From the IMG/VR virus record IMGVR_UViG_3300024502_000010, positions 62,001 to 126,000 of that record: DNA of 64,000 nucleotides. The stretch is one strand, 5' to 3'. The translations under genes were made by a program, and so were the position numbers. Shown here in pieces: positions 47,787 through 62,013 of the stretch. The notes below the pieces were generated by a model. That model was not told the origin of the DNA. It saw nothing but the letters and a program-made list of their open reading frames with translations, and made no database searches. Each line of letters starts with the position of its first letter. Within the stretch, counting starts at the first letter, position 1. The stretch comes from a virus.

Positions 47787-50700
47787 TTATCCTCTCATAC
47801 TTAGTATGTCTTGTTCCCAATTAATTTCTTCATCAATAATTGTAGTAGAGGACTGAGGTTTGGTCAGAATCGAAGGAGACATTATAAAGTCCACTTCACT
47901 ATTATCAACGATTATTTCTGGTCTTTGGTCTATTTTTCTACCGGTATATTTACTCAAATGCTTTATCAGTTGAGATGATTTTTCATTTCTTTGTTTTTCA
48001 TTCTCAATGCCATTGATCATACTGAAGAATTGGACTCCACCAAACAAATCAACAGAATCTTTATCAATCACATATTCACCTTCGTGCAATAGTCTAATAC
48101 CACCAGATAAAGTAGGTCCACCACTCTGACGAGAAGAACTTAACATAGATTTAACTTCAAGATAATTCAAGAATGAAGTTTGATTTCTGTCGCCCACATA
48201 ACCAACATGAACATGAGGAACTTTATTTGCTACACCAGATAATCCAAGCGGAGTTCCTGCATTTATTTTGATTCCCGATTTATTCTTAACAGCACTCGAT
48301 AGTTCATACAAGTGAGTTGCATAAAAGAAATTAACTGTTTTGCCTTTGTGTGAAAAAGGTTTATCCAATTTTATTCTTACACTATGCTGATCTTGTTGAC
48401 CGGGCATATTTGGATTTGCATCTTGACCCATTTGAGCAACATGTCCACGCTCTGCATACTCTAAAATTCCACTAACAGATGCAACAACTTTTGAACCTAT
48501 AGGCGTTAAAATATCAAGACCAGTATCAGCAGCATATCCTCCTTTATTTGAAGCAATATTCTGAGAAGGAACTGGGTTTACAACACCAGAAATTGAAGTA
48601 GAGACACTCTCTGCACCCATATTTAATCCACTACCATCAGGAGTTTCTGGGTCACAAATGCAAGGATCTACATTTGCGGCAGGGGAACCTGGTGCTATTT
48701 TTGCAGTTGACGGACCTGCACCTTTTTTTATTTGTGCCAATCGTGCCATAAAATTAGATCTTGACATACCAGCCCTATTTCCACCAGCGTGTCTGTCAGG
48801 ATATGTTCCACCACTACTATGGGGAAGACCTCTCCAAGTCGCAGAAAGACGATTACCAAACTCTTCATCACTCATCTGACCACTTCTCCACCTTGAAAAT
48901 CCATGTCCAGAATATAACATTTTTAATGCTGTTCTATCTTGCAATTCTGGCGTAAACTTATCACTTCCTTTACCACCAGCTGCAACTACACGCTCTAAAA
49001 GATATTCTGGCATTTGTTGATATCTACCAACAGCACCATTTGCATTTGATGCCAACCAAGAAACACTCATTTGAGTTGGTTTTCCTGCAGTTGCACCGCG
49101 AGAAACATTAAATGCATCATATTCTTTAGGTCCAGATTCGACTGAAGCAATCAAATCTAAAATTGCTTTATCAATTGCATCTCCAGCAACAGCAAACCCG
49201 CTACCAGTATCGCAAGCAGCAGCACAAGCATCCGCACTTGTTTCTTCAGCAACACCCGGTGGAGGAAGAAGACCTAATTGAATTCTAAGTTGATTTTGTA
49301 TCTGAGAAAATTTGTCCTGCAAACTTTTTGAGATTTCTTGTTCGATAATATTCTTAAATTCATCAGTTCCTAAAGATGTGTATATTTGATTATACGCTTG
49401 CCTATTTTCTTCATAAACTCCGGATAATAATAAAGAGGACAATGAACCACTTGCATTAGAATAATCTCTATTCGTAATTCTATCTCCAAGAATGGATTTT
49501 ACAGTTAACCCCATTAAAGGTCCAATTGAACCACCATCATATAAACTTTCATAAGAAGAAATCATATAGTTATATTGATTCATTCTATCATTTTCTTTTG
49601 GATATGGAAAAATCTGTGTCATCATTCCAGTTCCGCCTATTGCAGATCCAGGTTGCAATGAACTCGATTGTGGATTGAATGTTCTTGGTATTTCTACTTT
49701 TTTACCTTTATTATTTTGAGTATATCCACCCCCAGCAAATTTTTTAACTACTAACCCACCACTATAATATCCCATATCTTTAACTGCTTTCTGCCCATAC
49801 AAACTTCCAAATGACCCAGGAGTTTGTAGTTTATTGGCAACGCTATCCATTTTGAAGAATGAGAAAAGAGGAGCAAATACAGATAGACCCTCTCTTATAT
49901 TGTCTCGCACTCTTGCATCAAACTTTCCCAAATTTTTATTTTGTTCTTCAAGTCCTCTTTTATCATTATTAATTTTCATTGCTGCAGCACGAATCAACTC
50001 AACACCGTATCTAAAAGGAGCACCAATAATATCCAGAAGAGTTCCAACACTACTTAAGAATGCTATCGGAACTTTAAACATTGCGGAGAGAACACCGAAT
50101 TGGTTCAATCCTTTGGAATATTTTTTAATTTGATATATTCCTTCACCTAAAGCCGAGGATAATAGACCTGCGCCAAGAACTATTCCAGCAGCACCCAAAG
50201 GTCCAATTGCTGCTCGTGCTGCTACCTTTGATCCTTCTTCTGCCGCTTTTGCTGCTGCTTCTCCTTTTATCTTTTGTTGAATAATATCGGTGCCAGATTC
50301 TATTGCTTGACTTGCTGCAGGTATTCCACTACCAACTCCACCAAAATCACTGAATATCATTCCGGCAATCATGATAGAATTCATTAAAGAATTCGCTTGA
50401 TTGTTCAATCCATCCAAAGAATCAACTGCTTTTTGTCCGCCAATAGTCTTTACTAATTTTCTTGCATGTTCGGCTGCTTGATATCCTTTATCTACAAATG
50501 TGACTAATCCATTTAATAATTTGCCACTCATATCAAGAATAAAATCACTGACCTTAAACATTGTGGTCAATAATCCCATCATTTGTGGAAGATATTTTAA
50601 CAGACGAACTGCTACAAATCCTAATAAAACATTAACAATAAATTGTTTTAAGGAATCTAAGAAACCAAGTTTTTTTCCTATCTTCTTTATTGGTTTTCCT

Positions 50701-50885
50701 ATAAACTTTAATGTTTTTTCAAGTCTTGATTCATAATCAATAAATCTTTCTCTTTCAGAATTTTTTCTCTTATCATCAATACTTTTTTTCTGAGTAATTA
50801 ATGATGACTTAATAAGTTTTTCCTTTGCAACAAATTGTCCCTTTACGGATTTAAGAGTTGTTGTGAATGGAGAAACTATTTTCAT
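47787..50885 (-). CDS. tape-measure-like tail protein with lysozyme-like and M23-like domains
   Basis: 1032 aa. The N-terminus (KKLGFLDSLKQFIVNVLLGF) parallels 44894-47782. Residues ~580-720 resemble a phage lysozyme/lytic transglycosylase (VESGPKEYDAFNVSRG, NGAVGRYQQMPEYLL). Residues ~775-905 resemble an M23/lysostaphin domain: GLDILTPIGSKVVAS ... PHVHVGYVG, but the usual first metal His (H-x-G-x-D) is replaced (DTGLDI). The end repeats GEYVIDKDSVDLFG. Likely supplies wall hydrolysis that T4 keeps in gp5. Confidence 0.78.
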   Translation of the reverse strand: MKIVSPFTTTLKSVKGQFVAKEKLIKSSLITQKKSIDDKRKNSERERFIDYESRLEKTLKFIGKPIKKIGKKLGFLDSLKQFIVNVLLGFVAVRLLKYLPQMMGLLTTMFKVSDFILDMSGKLLNGLVTFVDKGYQAAEHARKLVKTIGGQKAVDSLDGLNNQANSLMNSIMIAGMIFSDFGGVGSGIPAASQAIESGTDIIQQKIKGEAAAKAAEEGSKVAARAAIGPLGAAGIVLGAGLLSSALGEGIYQIKKYSKGLNQFGVLSAMFKVPIAFLSSVGTLLDIIGAPFRYGVELIRAAAMKINNDKRGLEEQNKNLGKFDARVRDNIREGLSVFAPLFSFFKMDSVANKLQTPGSFGSLYGQKAVKDMGYYSGGLVVKKFAGGGYTQNNKGKKVEIPRTFNPQSSSLQPGSAIGGTGMMTQIFPYPKENDRMNQYNYMISSYESLYDGGSIGPLMGLTVKSILGDRITNRDYSNASGSLSSLLLSGVYEENRQAYNQIYTSLGTDEFKNIIEQEISKSLQDKFSQIQNQLRIQLGLLPPPGVAEETSADACAAACDTGSGFAVAGDAIDKAILDLIASVESGPKEYDAFNVSRGATAGKPTQMSVSWLASNANGAVGRYQQMPEYLLERVVAAGGKGSDKFTPELQDRTALKMLYSGHGFSRWRSGQMSDEEFGNRLSATWRGLPHSSGGTYPDRHAGGNRAGMSRSNFMARLAQIKKGAGPSTAKIAPGSPAANVDPCICDPETPDGSGLNMGAESVSTSISGVVNPVPSQNIASNKGGYAADTGLDILTPIGSKVVASVSGILEYAERGHVAQMGQDANPNMPGQQDQHSVRIKLDKPFSHKGKTVNFFYATHLYELSSAVKNKSGIKINAGTPLGLSGVANKVPHVHVGYVGDRNQTSFLNYLEVKSMLSSSRQSGGPTLSGGIRLLHEGEYVIDKDSVDLFGGVQFFSMINGIENEKQRNEKSSQLIKHLSKYTGRKIDQRPEIIVDNSEVDFIMSPSILTKPQSSTTIIDEEINWEQDILSMRG

Positions 50886-50887
50886 TT

Positions 50888-53236
50888 TTATCTAATACCT
50901 AAGATATTAGCATTTCTTCTATTTGAACTTGACGAAGCACTGAAGGATGGAACTGATGGATTTGAACCACTTCCTCTTCCTCCTCCCATTCCACCTCCAG
51001 CAACTTTTGGCTTAGATGAAACAACTTTAGGTGCTGGTTTTGGTGTTGGGGTGATTGGTCTTGAGTTTGGAGATGTTTTACCTATCTTTGCCATTCTCAA
51101 GTCTCTTGCTCTCTTCGCCTCAGCATAACTTCCATAATATTTTCCATCCGAAGATGAATAGTATTTACCCATTGCCGCAGCACCAGATTGCTTTATTCTT
51201 GCCTCAGATGCTTTGTCGGCAGCATTTGCTTTATCTATTTGGTCATATGTACCAAACATTCTGGTTAATCCACGACCAACTCCACCAAGAAGTCCACCCC
51301 TATTCATAAATTCTTGATTTGCAGTTCTTACCTTAGCATTAGTTTCTCTTTCTCTTTGCTGTGGGGTAATTGAAATTGATAACTTTTTCTTTGCATTTGA
51401 ATCATTTACTGCTCTTGAATATCCATTAGGTCCAAGGCGTTCATTCATCATTTTTTTAATATTTTCTTCTTTCATTCCACGCCTTCTCATATCTTCCAAA
51501 TCACTAATAGCAGTGAGACGCATTTTTCTTGCGTTTAAAGTCTCCTCTCTGCCAGTAGAACCTTTTGGATCAAAGAAGTCTGCAATAGACTCCAACATTC
51601 CTTTGTTTCTTTCAGTTGCTCTTTGATAAGTTGGTTCTCCTCCTTTAAAAGACAAGTAAGCAACAAAAGGTCCATCAGGTCCCATCATAATTTTAGTTTT
51701 TGGTAGGTTCTTTTTATCTACATTTCCAAGACCACTACTCATCAAACCACCACCTTTACCACTATATCCTTTATTTCTGGCACCATACTTATCAACTTGT
51801 CCAGAAAGACCCTTTGCAAAATTAGAGGAGTATATAATATCCTTTCCTCTTTTTTGAGCAAAATATCTCATTCCACCGACATTAATTTCATTAATAGGAA
51901 TACTATCGGCACCCGTTCCTGCACCAAGGGTTTTTACTCCACCTTTAACAAGGATTGATTGTCTACCACCATAAGTTGTTCCATAACCAGCACCAAGAGG
52001 TGTTTTTACTCCTTTTCCGGATGAAAGTGCTCTTTGAACTCCTACTTGGTCTTCTATTCTCTTTAATCTTTGGTCTAAAGATAATCTTTTATTATCTTCA
52101 AGAACAGGATCTCTATAATTAGGATCTTCTCCAATCAATCCACCACCTACAGCATGAACTGCATGTCTTACAATTTTGGGGCGATTAGTTCCACCACCAG
52201 CAGAGTTCATTGCTTCAAGTGTGCTCACACCAAACTTCTGAACTGCTCCACGAGACATAACAAATTCACCGTCAGTAAGCATTGCTGGGACTTTATCAAT
52301 TCCCTTTGGACCAGAAATGCTTCCACCAAGTCCTTGAGTTATATTAGCAAGACCACCAGAAGCTAAAAATGCTGTAAATGGATTGAGTTGGGAAGATACT
52401 TCTGCTCCAGTTGACTTTAAAATACCTTTTAAGTCGGCAAGACCACCACCAGCAGCTTCCATTGTGGGAACTGACTGAGGTTCAGGAACTGCTATTTGTG
52501 GTGCTTCTCCATCACCCATGAATTTATTGATTGCAAGACCAGTTCCAACAGCAGCTGCACCGGCAACTCCAAGTTGAAGAAGACCACCGCGCAATCCACC
52601 AATTTTTCCACCACCAGCAAATACGGAGGCAATCCCCTTTCTTTTTAGTATTTGTCCAGTGGCAATTGCTTTTGCTAATCTTGCTGCAATTACAATAAGT
52701 CTGGTTGTTAACCCAACGGCAACTCCAGCAACTTTTCTTACAACTCTACCAAACCCAGTACCAAATAAAATATAACCAGCAACCAGAGATGGCCACCAAT
52801 CACTCAAAAATCTCATTATGGAGCGAATTTTGCTCCTATTTTTTTCGTCCGCAAACCAATTTAATAATAATATAAGTGCTCTACCAAGAAATACGGTAAC
52901 AAAAAATTGTATTATCTGGTCTAATATACTTTTAACTGGAGCAACAACAGATTGTGCTACATTCTTTACGGTTGCAAAAGATCTTTCCAGACCAAGTTCT
53001 ATACCCTGTCTTCTACTTCTTTCCTGACTTTTTCTTGTTTCATCAACATCTCTCTTTGTCTGAACATTTTGTTGAGAGAGAAGTTGAATGATATTTGTTA
53101 ATGATTTAGATATGTCCTGCAGGATGGCAGTGTCTGCAGGGGATGATATTAATTGTTGTTGAGGTTGAGCAGCAAAAGCAGAAGAACGAACCGTTGTCGT
53201 TCTACCCATCATTTTTTGTGCATTTACTGTTGCCAT
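50888..53236 (-). CDS. tape-measure-like tail protein
   Basis: 782 aa beginning MATVNAQKMMGRTTTVRS. Residues ~60-220 hold several hydrophobic helices (FVTVFLGRALILLLNWF); ~300-340 has IDKVPAMLTDGEFVMSRGAV, the 'alpha-GEFV' motif common in phage tape-measure proteins; the C-terminus is basic and Gly/Ser/Pro-rich. It directly follows the gp26/60-aa chaperone-like pair, the expected place of the tape measure. Shorter than T4 gp29-proportion; the neighbours may share the job. Confidence 0.7.
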   Translation of the reverse strand: MATVNAQKMMGRTTTVRSSAFAAQPQQQLISSPADTAILQDISKSLTNIIQLLSQQNVQTKRDVDETRKSQERSRRQGIELGLERSFATVKNVAQSVVAPVKSILDQIIQFFVTVFLGRALILLLNWFADEKNRSKIRSIMRFLSDWWPSLVAGYILFGTGFGRVVRKVAGVAVGLTTRLIVIAARLAKAIATGQILKRKGIASVFAGGGKIGGLRGGLLQLGVAGAAAVGTGLAINKFMGDGEAPQIAVPEPQSVPTMEAAGGGLADLKGILKSTGAEVSSQLNPFTAFLASGGLANITQGLGGSISGPKGIDKVPAMLTDGEFVMSRGAVQKFGVSTLEAMNSAGGGTNRPKIVRHAVHAVGGGLIGEDPNYRDPVLEDNKRLSLDQRLKRIEDQVGVQRALSSGKGVKTPLGAGYGTTYGGRQSILVKGGVKTLGAGTGADSIPINEINVGGMRYFAQKRGKDIIYSSNFAKGLSGQVDKYGARNKGYSGKGGGLMSSGLGNVDKKNLPKTKIMMGPDGPFVAYLSFKGGEPTYQRATERNKGMLESIADFFDPKGSTGREETLNARKMRLTAISDLEDMRRRGMKEENIKKMMNERLGPNGYSRAVNDSNAKKKLSISITPQQRERETNAKVRTANQEFMNRGGLLGGVGRGLTRMFGTYDQIDKANAADKASEARIKQSGAAAMGKYYSSSDGKYYGSYAEAKRARDLRMAKIGKTSPNSRPITPTPKPAPKVVSSKPKVAGGGMGGGRGSGSNPSVPSFSASSSSNRRNANILGIR

Positions 53237-53242
53237 GATGCC

Positions 53243-53425
53243 TTACAGTTGTGAGCTTTGCTGTTGTTGCTTCATCCTCTCTTCTTCAAGATGTTGCTCC
53301 AAAAGACCAACATAAACATCTCTTTCCCACGGGATCATATTTTCAATCTCCCATAAAGAATATTTATGGTACTGTACTAAGGCAAAATTAAGTCGGAAGT
53401 AGTTTTCGAGGTCCATATGGACCAT
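53243..53425 (-). CDS. 60-residue ORF, probable frameshifted extension of gp26
   Basis: MVHMDLENYFRLNFALVQYH, then YSLWEIENMIPWERDVYVGL and a Gln/Glu-rich tail. It resembles the short 'T' part of tail assembly chaperones (small, helical, 'W-E..' region). The ATG at 53425 lacks a Shine-Dalgarno at normal distance; the nearest GAAGG is ~20 nt away. The frame is -1 relative to gp26 and open from the slippery site, giving a 301-residue fusion. It could also be translated alone as a gp51-like hub factor. Confidence 0.75.
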   Translation of the reverse strand: MVHMDLENYFRLNFALVQYHKYSLWEIENMIPWERDVYVGLLEQHLEEERMKQQQQSSQL

Positions 53426-53440
53426 GGCTACGCGAAAAAA
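53410..53440 (-). promoter_or_regulatory. candidate programmed -1 frameshift site
   Basis: Minus-strand T TTT TTC (53440-53434) is in the gp26 frame two codons before its TAG. Ten nt later GGTCCATATGGACC (53423-53410) can form a 5-bp hairpin with a 4-nt loop. A -1 slip reads CGC GTA GCC ATG into the 60-aa ORF. Confidence 0.65.
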
Positions 53441-54147
53441 GACGCTAACCCTTCAAGAACTACTTCACTTTCAACACCAGTAGTTGGGTTCTTGACAGTG
53501 ATTTTATGAGAAAGTTTTGGCATTGTTTCAAAGAACTTTTCAATTTCTTTGAACTGTGAGGAATTCATTTGATCTAAAAATTCAGTAACCTCTTTTTTAG
53601 TTACATCTGCCGTAGACCATACTTCTTCTTCAGTATAGATTTTATCAATGCAAGATGCAATCAAATCAAAAGATTGTTCCATTGCATTTTCATTTTTAAA
53701 ATCGAAGTTAGTTTTGATGAATTGGTCAAGTGATGGATATTTCATTTCCATCATAATACTACTATCTACCTTAATTTTATTGGTATGTTCTGGATTTTTT
53801 TGTACTTTAATATCATCCAAGTTAATACTCACAGAAACATTAGTTTCATTATCATCAGGGCAGATAATATTAACCTCAACATCTTCTCCGACAGATTTGC
53901 CGCGAATATTGAGAAATAAAAACTCAATGTCAAAAGTTGGTAAATTTTCTACTTTAATGTCTTTAGTCAAAATACAACTTTTGATGACATTCTTAATTGC
54001 ATTAGTAATTTGCTTATTGTCTTCGCTTTCTAAAGCAATTACTAATAACTTTTCTTCCTTAACAAGAAATGGTCGGTAAAGAATTGTTTTTCCACTTGAA
54101 GGCAATTCAAGTTCATAAGTCGGTGTAGAAATCTTAGGTAATGGCAT
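53428..54147 (-). CDS. 26: baseplate hub/tail assembly protein gp26
   Basis: 239 aa beginning MPLPKISTPTYELELPSS. It fits the T4 baseplate protein family (PF12322-type, T4 gp26/gp51): YRPFLVKEEKLLVIALESED, CILTKDIKVENLPTFDIEFL, then 'NIRGKSVGE'. In T4 gp26 and gp51 are homologous hub factors. Here the stop follows a slippery heptamer and the gene lies immediately before a tape-measure-like gene, as tail assembly chaperones do. Confidence 0.85.
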   Translation of the reverse strand: MPLPKISTPTYELELPSSGKTILYRPFLVKEEKLLVIALESEDNKQITNAIKNVIKSCILTKDIKVENLPTFDIEFLFLNIRGKSVGEDVEVNIICPDDNETNVSVSINLDDIKVQKNPEHTNKIKVDSSIMMEMKYPSLDQFIKTNFDFKNENAMEQSFDLIASCIDKIYTEEEVWSTADVTKKEVTEFLDQMNSSQFKEIEKFFETMPKLSHKITVKNPTTGVESEVVLEGLASFFA

Positions 54148-54187: not shown

Positions 54188-55099
54188 TTATGCTCTGACT
54201 GAATTTCCAGAAGAATTTGCTGCTTGTTGAGATACTCCACCAACTGTAAAGGATGATGGAGAAGAAGTTGCCAAAGCTCCAGCACCATCAAGACCAGGAA
54301 GTGCCATATCACCAATGCTAAATTGTGCATTATTGTATATTGCTTGAGTTTCTGGGTCCACAAAATCGCCAAAAGAAGATTGGGCGTCCGAATGAAGAGG
54401 TTCTTTACTTCCAGTTGGGTAAAGAACATACCTAACATAAGAAAAAGACACGGTACATTTTAGTAGAGATGAAGTATCATAAGAAACTGGCATTGAAGAT
54501 ATAGAAATAGGAAATGCGTTAACAAATTGATAACTCAATGTTCCTCCAGAATAAAAATCTTTAGAACCAGTTCTTTCGAATTTTGTGATAGATAATCCCG
54601 ATTTAGAAACATAATTGGTTGGATAATTTATTCTATAAAAATAATTTGTAGCTAAAGAACCAGGTCTGCGTACACCTTCAGTTTTCTCTGGACCTTGAGC
54701 TACACTTTCTCCAACGATATATTTCATCCATACTTCAAAAAATCTAATTGGAAGATATTCGCCAGCGTTGACATAAAATGTCATATCAATTCTATCATCA
54801 TAAATTCTTCTTGAAGCGTGTCTATGAGTAGTTCCGTGATAATCGCTGTTAATATCAATGGTCGCAATATTAGATCCAGGAAGCACTGTTTCGCAACAAA
54901 GCAAATTCAAAGTATCTTGCTTAATTCCCTCAAATTGATATATTCCATTCGCTTCGAAATACTTTCTGCCATTAGTCCCAGAGAGTCCAGGGGGAATGGG
55001 AATTGATACCTCAAAATGAGATGTTAGTGCTGGGTTCAGTAGTTTGGACTTAATGTCCGACACTGACCTTACTGTTCTTCTAACTGGGTCGAATACCAT
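54188..55099 (-). CDS. 54: baseplate tail-tube initiator gp54
   Basis: 303 aa beginning MVFDPVRRTVRSVSDIKS. LLCCETVLPGSNIATID, the long loop YHGTTHRHASRRIYDD and the strand pattern of the tube-protein fold (T4 gp19 relatives) fit gp54 (320 aa in T4). It starts the tail tube on the baseplate together with gp48. The ATG overlaps TATAA of the late-promoter region, so the next in-frame start could be used by some transcripts. Confidence 0.75.
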   Translation of the reverse strand: MVFDPVRRTVRSVSDIKSKLLNPALTSHFEVSIPIPPGLSGTNGRKYFEANGIYQFEGIKQDTLNLLCCETVLPGSNIATIDINSDYHGTTHRHASRRIYDDRIDMTFYVNAGEYLPIRFFEVWMKYIVGESVAQGPEKTEGVRRPGSLATNYFYRINYPTNYVSKSGLSITKFERTGSKDFYSGGTLSYQFVNAFPISISSMPVSYDTSSLLKCTVSFSYVRYVLYPTGSKEPLHSDAQSSFGDFVDPETQAIYNNAQFSIGDMALPGLDGAGALATSSPSSFTVGGVSQQAANSSGNSVRA

Positions 55100-61764: not shown

Positions 61765-62013
61765 TTAAACGGGTTTTACTTTAGAGCCTGGAACTTGTGA
61801 TGCTTTTTTAAGAACATCATTCCATCCGGGATGAGATTTTTTAAGTCTATCATACACTTCCCCAATATCACCAGATGATGGGCAAGTACTTGGGTCAGAC
61901 CAATCTCTATCCCACTCGGGATTATCTTTTTTCCATTGATCCCAATCATGAACACTGAGAACAACTTCTTTTTGTTCACCAGTTTGTTTATTAATCACTG
62001 GATATGTTGCCAA
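61765..62013 (-). CDS. conserved cyanophage protein, unknown
   Basis: 82 aa beginning MATYPVINKQTGEQKEVV. Segments SVHDWDQWKKDNPEWDRDWS and PGWNDVLKKASQVPGSKV have a pattern I associate with cyanophages in this position. It starts like a short zinc-ribbon-type protein but lacks the Cys. Function unknown. Confidence 0.7.
   Translation of the reverse strand: MATYPVINKQTGEQKEVVLSVHDWDQWKKDNPEWDRDWSDPSTCPSSGDIGEVYDRLKKSHPGWNDVLKKASQVPGSKVKPV

Follow-up and report, generated by a model that had tools for sequence, protein, structure and literature searches.

The window analysed here, a stretch of 64,000 nt (positions 62,001 to 126,000) of the virus record IMGVR_UViG_3300024502_000010, which is 204,829 bp in whole and may be a fragment, carries on its minus strand a gene for gp26 followed by a 60-codon open reading frame (ORF), and our subject is the -1 frameshift that could join the two (Table 1). 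The product of the first gene matches Pfam PF12322 T4_baseplate with an E value of 3.8e-76 and PHROG 150 'baseplate hub' with 3e-80, and the short ORF is gp51, as it matches PHROG 634 'baseplate hub assembly catalyst' (E 6e-27). A further match of the gp51 ORF, to the C terminus of PHROG 150, the gp26 family, was the first hint that both parts occur fused. On the minus strand the junction reads GAA GGG TTA GCG TCT TTT TTC GCG TAG CC ATG GTC CAT ATG GAC C. A -1 slip at the heptamer T TTT TTC would continue as CGC GTA GCC ATG GTC... into the ORF at 53243-53425 and give a predicted fusion of 301 amino acids (aa), 238 + RVA + 60, with NPTTGVESEVVLEGLASFFR and VAMVHMDLENYFR as predicted diagnostic peptides. 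A preliminary description of the DNA had proposed this heptamer close to the gp26 stop, the 301-residue fusion, a GGTCC/GGACC hairpin 10 nt past the heptamer and a gp51 ATG lacking a well-spaced Shine-Dalgarno (SD) sequence; coordinates, frame, length and hairpin all proved right on re-examination, and no SD-like core lies at a usable distance from that ATG.

Table 1. Features of the gp26/gp51 junction and the adjoining genes (positions in the window).
Feature	Position	Strand	Basis or remark
Slippery heptamer T TTT TTC	53434-53440	-	gp26 register; conserved in relatives
gp26 stop TAG	53428-53430	-	GCG is the sole sense codon between heptamer and stop
Stem-loop GGTCC-ATAT-GGACC, candidate 3' stimulator	53410-53423	-	10-nt spacer; trough in folding z; covariation
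Shine-Dalgarno-like GAAGGG, candidate 5' stimulator	53449-53454	-	upstream of heptamer
gp26, 239 aa, short tail assembly chaperone isoform (TAC-N; predicted)	53428-54147	-	PF12322, PHROG 150, AlphaFold model
gp51, -1 frame extension (RVA + 60 codons + stop), C-terminal part of long isoform TAC-NC (predicted)	53243-53434	-	PHROG 634; RB69 gp51 alignment
Tail tube protein, preceding gene	54188-55099	-	Pfam Phage_TTP_2, E 7.6e-12; PHROG 45 'tail tube', E 3e-34
Next gene, 782 aa, probable tape-measure-type protein (weak evidence)	50888-53236	-	PHROG; relatives' annotation

In-frame heptamers of the form X XXY YYZ, where Y is A or T, occur 92 times in the 60 window ORFs that are 100 aa or longer, and the T TTT TTC of gp26 is the only one of them that lies 15 nt or less from a stop. 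Since about 1.6 such sites would be expected by chance, by our own estimate, a single site in the window is without significance by itself, and it is, on comparison of the sequences, the conservation in relatives that makes the heptamer significant. Single-protein scans of viral contigs, together with phage records, yielded 330 loci in which the gp26 end is complete, and from these a non-redundant set of 177 junctions was made, 175 of them scored for the reading frame and starts of gp51. The preliminary description had named an absent site or a varying frame among relatives as what would speak against a frameshift. What we found is T TTT TTN in the exact gp26 register in 327 of the 330 relatives, and of the 327 loci that allowed gp51 to be located, 326 have it in the -1 frame. 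The exceptions to T TTT TTN are RB69, which has two genes, Vibrio phage K353 and locus L334.

The RNA around the heptamer also carries a signal. When 40-nt windows along gp26 and gp51 were folded for the 177 junctions, a single deep trough appeared in the window that begins 5 nt past the heptamer (z -2.0 on average, with 65% below -1.5), while the share below -1.5 was 26% in the next downstream window and mostly 1-22% elsewhere; the mean at offset 135 was ignored as an artefact of division by zero variance, the median there being 0.21. The stems differ from lineage to lineage. In the clade of the window phage GATCC/GGATC, GGTTC/GAACC and AGTCC/GGACT are found as variants, with compensatory changes at three of the five stem pairs and an association at two pairs (Fisher 2.5e-5 and 5e-8, uncorrected for relatedness). 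Upstream of the heptamer an SD-like core is present in 164/177 junctions (93%), compared to 7% at control positions, and it nearly always ends 9-11 nt ahead of the heptamer. Core, heptamer and stem-loop resemble, as read from the sequence, the -1 signal of Escherichia coli dnaX, in which an upstream SD and a downstream stem-loop both stimulate the shift at the heptamer (PMC5009743). The two systems share all three elements, but the dnaX heptamer is A AAA AAG and that of gp26 U UUU UUC, and the shift in dnaX leads to a shorter product whereas the one proposed here would lead to a longer.

In RB69, a close relative of T4, gp26 consists of the PF12322 domain only, and gp51 is a separate gene on the opposite strand that encodes the full PF12322 domain and the gp51 tail. 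From 172 virtual fusions we made a profile, and this aligns with RB69 gp51 continuously from the middle of the domain, across the junction and into the tail, and with RB69 gp26 up to the Phe-Phe at the slip site, which is where RB69 gp26 ends. Because of this collinearity the predicted long product is, by alignment, an ordinary gene in T4's group. A second full-length PF12322 gene, as in the two-gene arrangement of T4, was not found in the 204,829-bp and possibly fragmentary record, which has one PF12322 match. A total of 1341 phage records, most of them from enterobacterial Straboviridae, contain relatives of the full-length RB69 gp51. The combination of T TTT TTN and a gp51 tail in the -1 frame is found in Caulobacter phage Cr30, Agrobacterium phage OLIVR6, Acidovorax phage ACP17, Pseudoalteromonas phage XG4, Sinorhizobium phiM12, Stenotrophomonas Ps15, Aeromonas AP1 and Methylophilales phage Melnitz, and within Straboviridae in S13, nt-1 and EniLVp02. 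Four Ackermannviridae loci (L336, L342, L345 and L347) keep the -1 gp51 tail and have NTT TTC only at the junction. Shifts of the Z_ZZN kind, which involve a single tRNA, have been described (PMC5009743), and by analogy the Ackermannviridae junctions could possibly use such a different shift site.

One way to do without a frameshift is to let gp51 be a separate protein, made by termination and reinitiation at the ATG just past the gp26 stop, with the heptamer being incidental. An ATG of gp51 exists in the window phage and in 110 of the 175 loci, TAATG or TGATG overlaps occur in some phages, and the public records that we examined have gp51 annotated as a separate gene or left out. The -1 frame is however open from the heptamer to the gp51 domain in 175/175 junctions, and ahead of the conserved domain there is no ATG in 65 of them and no ATG, GTG or TTG in 40. 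Between the heptamer and the first possible start there are 0 stops in 979 codons, a chance of about 1e-20 if shared ancestry is ignored. Where gp51 has an ATG, an SD-like core precedes it in only 11 of 110 loci, as compared to 118 of 173 for gp26's own ATG. From these reading frames it would seem that gp51 cannot start alone in many of the relatives, and a non-canonical start would need to be in frequent use. Reinitiation also leaves the invariant T run and the stem-loop unexplained, and we consider it unlikely.

The T run itself could be thought of as a mere protein constraint on a Glu-Gly-x-x-Ser-Phe-Phe ending, and Gly and Phe-Phe are conserved at the protein level. The six T are nevertheless invariant in 177/177 junctions while the flanking amino acids vary, and the codon before the run can be AGT, TCT, AAT, GAT, GCT, GGT, CAT or ACT, so that T at the third base is kept through eight codons for seven amino acids. 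The second residue at the heptamer is Phe in 164 junctions and Leu in 13, and the Leu codon is always TTA or TTG. At other places in these genes TTT accounts for just 69% of Phe codons, and the other Phe-Phe dyads are free in their synonymous choice (TTC TTT 108, TTT TTT 45, TTC TTC 17 and TTT TTC 12), which at the junction is fixed. The relatives share ancestry, and we give the conservation of the run without a formal probability; selection at the junction, to judge from the codons, acts on nucleotides, and a constraint on the protein alone is very improbable. We put just as little trust in transcriptional slippage, which would produce mRNAs one base longer or shorter. A homopolymer run is present, and a one-T deletion in L334 means that it can vary or be misread, but the run is exactly six T in 161/177 junctions and never more than eight, shorter than the 9-base runs cited for bacterial transcriptional slippage (PMC5009743). 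A slipping polymerase does not need a fixed X XXY YYZ register, and stem-loop and SD-like elements are stimulators of ribosomes.

The most rational explanation, and one that we hold to be very probable, is that gp26 and the 60-codon gp51 ORF are one recoding gene, where a -1 frameshift yields a short and a long chaperone isoform. We infer slippage from the conserved site, the frame, the RNA structure signal, the missing gp51 starts and the collinearity with RB69. Most ribosomes would terminate at TAG, the product being the short tail assembly chaperone of 239 aa, while some would pause between the upstream SD-like GAAGGG and the downstream GGUCC/GGACC stem-loop. The paused ribosomes would slip back one base on U UUU UUC and produce the 301-aa long isoform ending ...LEGLASFFRVAMVHMDLENYF... 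Like G and GT in lambda, the two isoforms would coat the tape measure protein and bring in subunits of the tail tube.

Several observations speak against this explanation. K353, with CTT TTC and an overlapping TAATG at its junction, and the four Ackermannviridae are without the full heptamer and have yet kept the -1 relation. L334 is one T short in the slippery run (at about position 2250) as compared to the near-identical L333, and the missing T, which could be either a mutation or a homopolymer sequencing error, breaks the fusion. The gp51 of the window phage has its own ATG, and a separate gp51 could therefore also be made. The SD-like element is partly a product of the conserved Glu-Gly codons, and since these force much of it we keep it just as a candidate. 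The match to an HK97 chaperone fold described below has an E value of 1.3 and is not significant, and the frameshift product itself is a prediction from sequence.

The role as chaperone is in line with the literature on T4, in which gp26 and gp51 are listed as hub assembly chaperones, gp51 being needed for assembly and absent from the final particle (PMC3004832); we infer a chaperone role here. The AlphaFold model of gp26, made from an alignment of the window and the loci of the relatives only, has a predicted local distance difference test (pLDDT) of 85.6, and in PDB its match of highest probability is to 2OB9, the tail assembly chaperone of HK97 (probability 0.77, E 1.3), with further matches to 2OB9 again (0.47) and 3FGX (0.28), both with E over 1. 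The model is thus only suggestive of an HK97-type chaperone fold. A search of PDB sequences with the gp26 profile gave noise only, and a search of NCBIfam gave no match above cut-off.

The gene order is a clear tail tube gene, gp26/gp51, and then a weakly tape-measure-like gene. That last label, given in the preliminary description, is weakly supported: the gene in the corresponding place is annotated as tape measure in Caulobacter phage Cr30 and Sinorhizobium phage phiM12, but the PHROG tape-measure matches of the 782-aa protein are weak (E about 0.01). With a tail tube gene, a probable tape-measure gene and a weak chaperone-type fold match, the comparison to the G/GT/H arrangement that had been drawn there would fit. 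Two genes downstream of gp26/gp51 lies a 1032-aa protein (47787-50885, minus strand) with an endolysin-like stretch at residues 569-691 (PHROG 90, E 4e-9). It also matches peptidase M23 weakly near residue 858, and it may be a tail protein that carries two domains for wall degradation.

Annotation of the gene pair is uneven among the records. The gp51 tail lies unannotated in the -1 frame in Cronobacter phage S13 (L339), Acidovorax phage ACP17 (L341), Aeromonas phage AP1 (L008) and phage CBA120 (L336). In phage Melnitz-3 (L011) and Agrobacterium phage OLIVR6 (L338) the annotated gp51 is truncated and begins within the conserved domain, because there is no upstream ATG, GTG or TTG. In Synechococcus phage S-WAM1 (L005) it is the annotated gp26 that begins well within the conserved protein, and gp51 is unannotated.

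The kind of system is already known. In phage P2 the myophage tail gene pair E/E' shifts -1 on T TTT TTG, which is nearly the same heptamer as T TTT TTC, and as far as we know it belongs to a different protein family. The slippery site of lambda is G GGA AAG, unlike the T TTT TTC found here. The likeness to lambda lies in the short and long isoforms, which lambda G/GT likewise has (Xu, Hendrix and Duda 2004). A 2016 review of recoding describes the tail frameshift as widespread except in T4. The preliminary description knew of no such arrangement in T4-like cyanophages, and we doubt that it is undescribed. Vladimirov, Gautam and Davidson (2022, Virology 566:9-15) reportedly identified the tail assembly chaperone genes of T4-like phages. 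One later paper credits that study with -1 frameshift signals of the poly-T kind in the T4-like genes for the short isoform (PMC12846349), and another with T4-like phages that have a short gene and a fused long one (PMC10885494). The latter pair matches RB69 and the gene family is the same, whereas the present case is a cyanophage; for T4-like phages the frameshift was apparently described in 2022, and the present case may be known already. For the conservation in cyanophages as quantified here, the turnover of the stem-loop, the SD-like element and the variant in Ackermannviridae we found no description in the literature searched, which is weak evidence of novelty.

The annotation can be corrected, as gp51, which several records lack or give in truncated form, should be part of a joined coding sequence, and the predicted gp26/gp51 frameshift is testable with a short cassette. 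We hypothesize, tentatively and with the odds somewhat against us, that the ancestral state of the wider T4-like assemblage (cyanophages, alphaproteobacterial phages, several Straboviridae and others) was a -1 frameshift with three elements as in dnaX. The stem-loop would then have been rebuilt repeatedly around a fixed heptamer, T4 and its close relatives would have gone over to two genes, and Ackermannviridae to a U UUC-type shift. The cyanophage data link a single, putatively frameshifting gene in many of the relatives with the two separate genes in T4's group.
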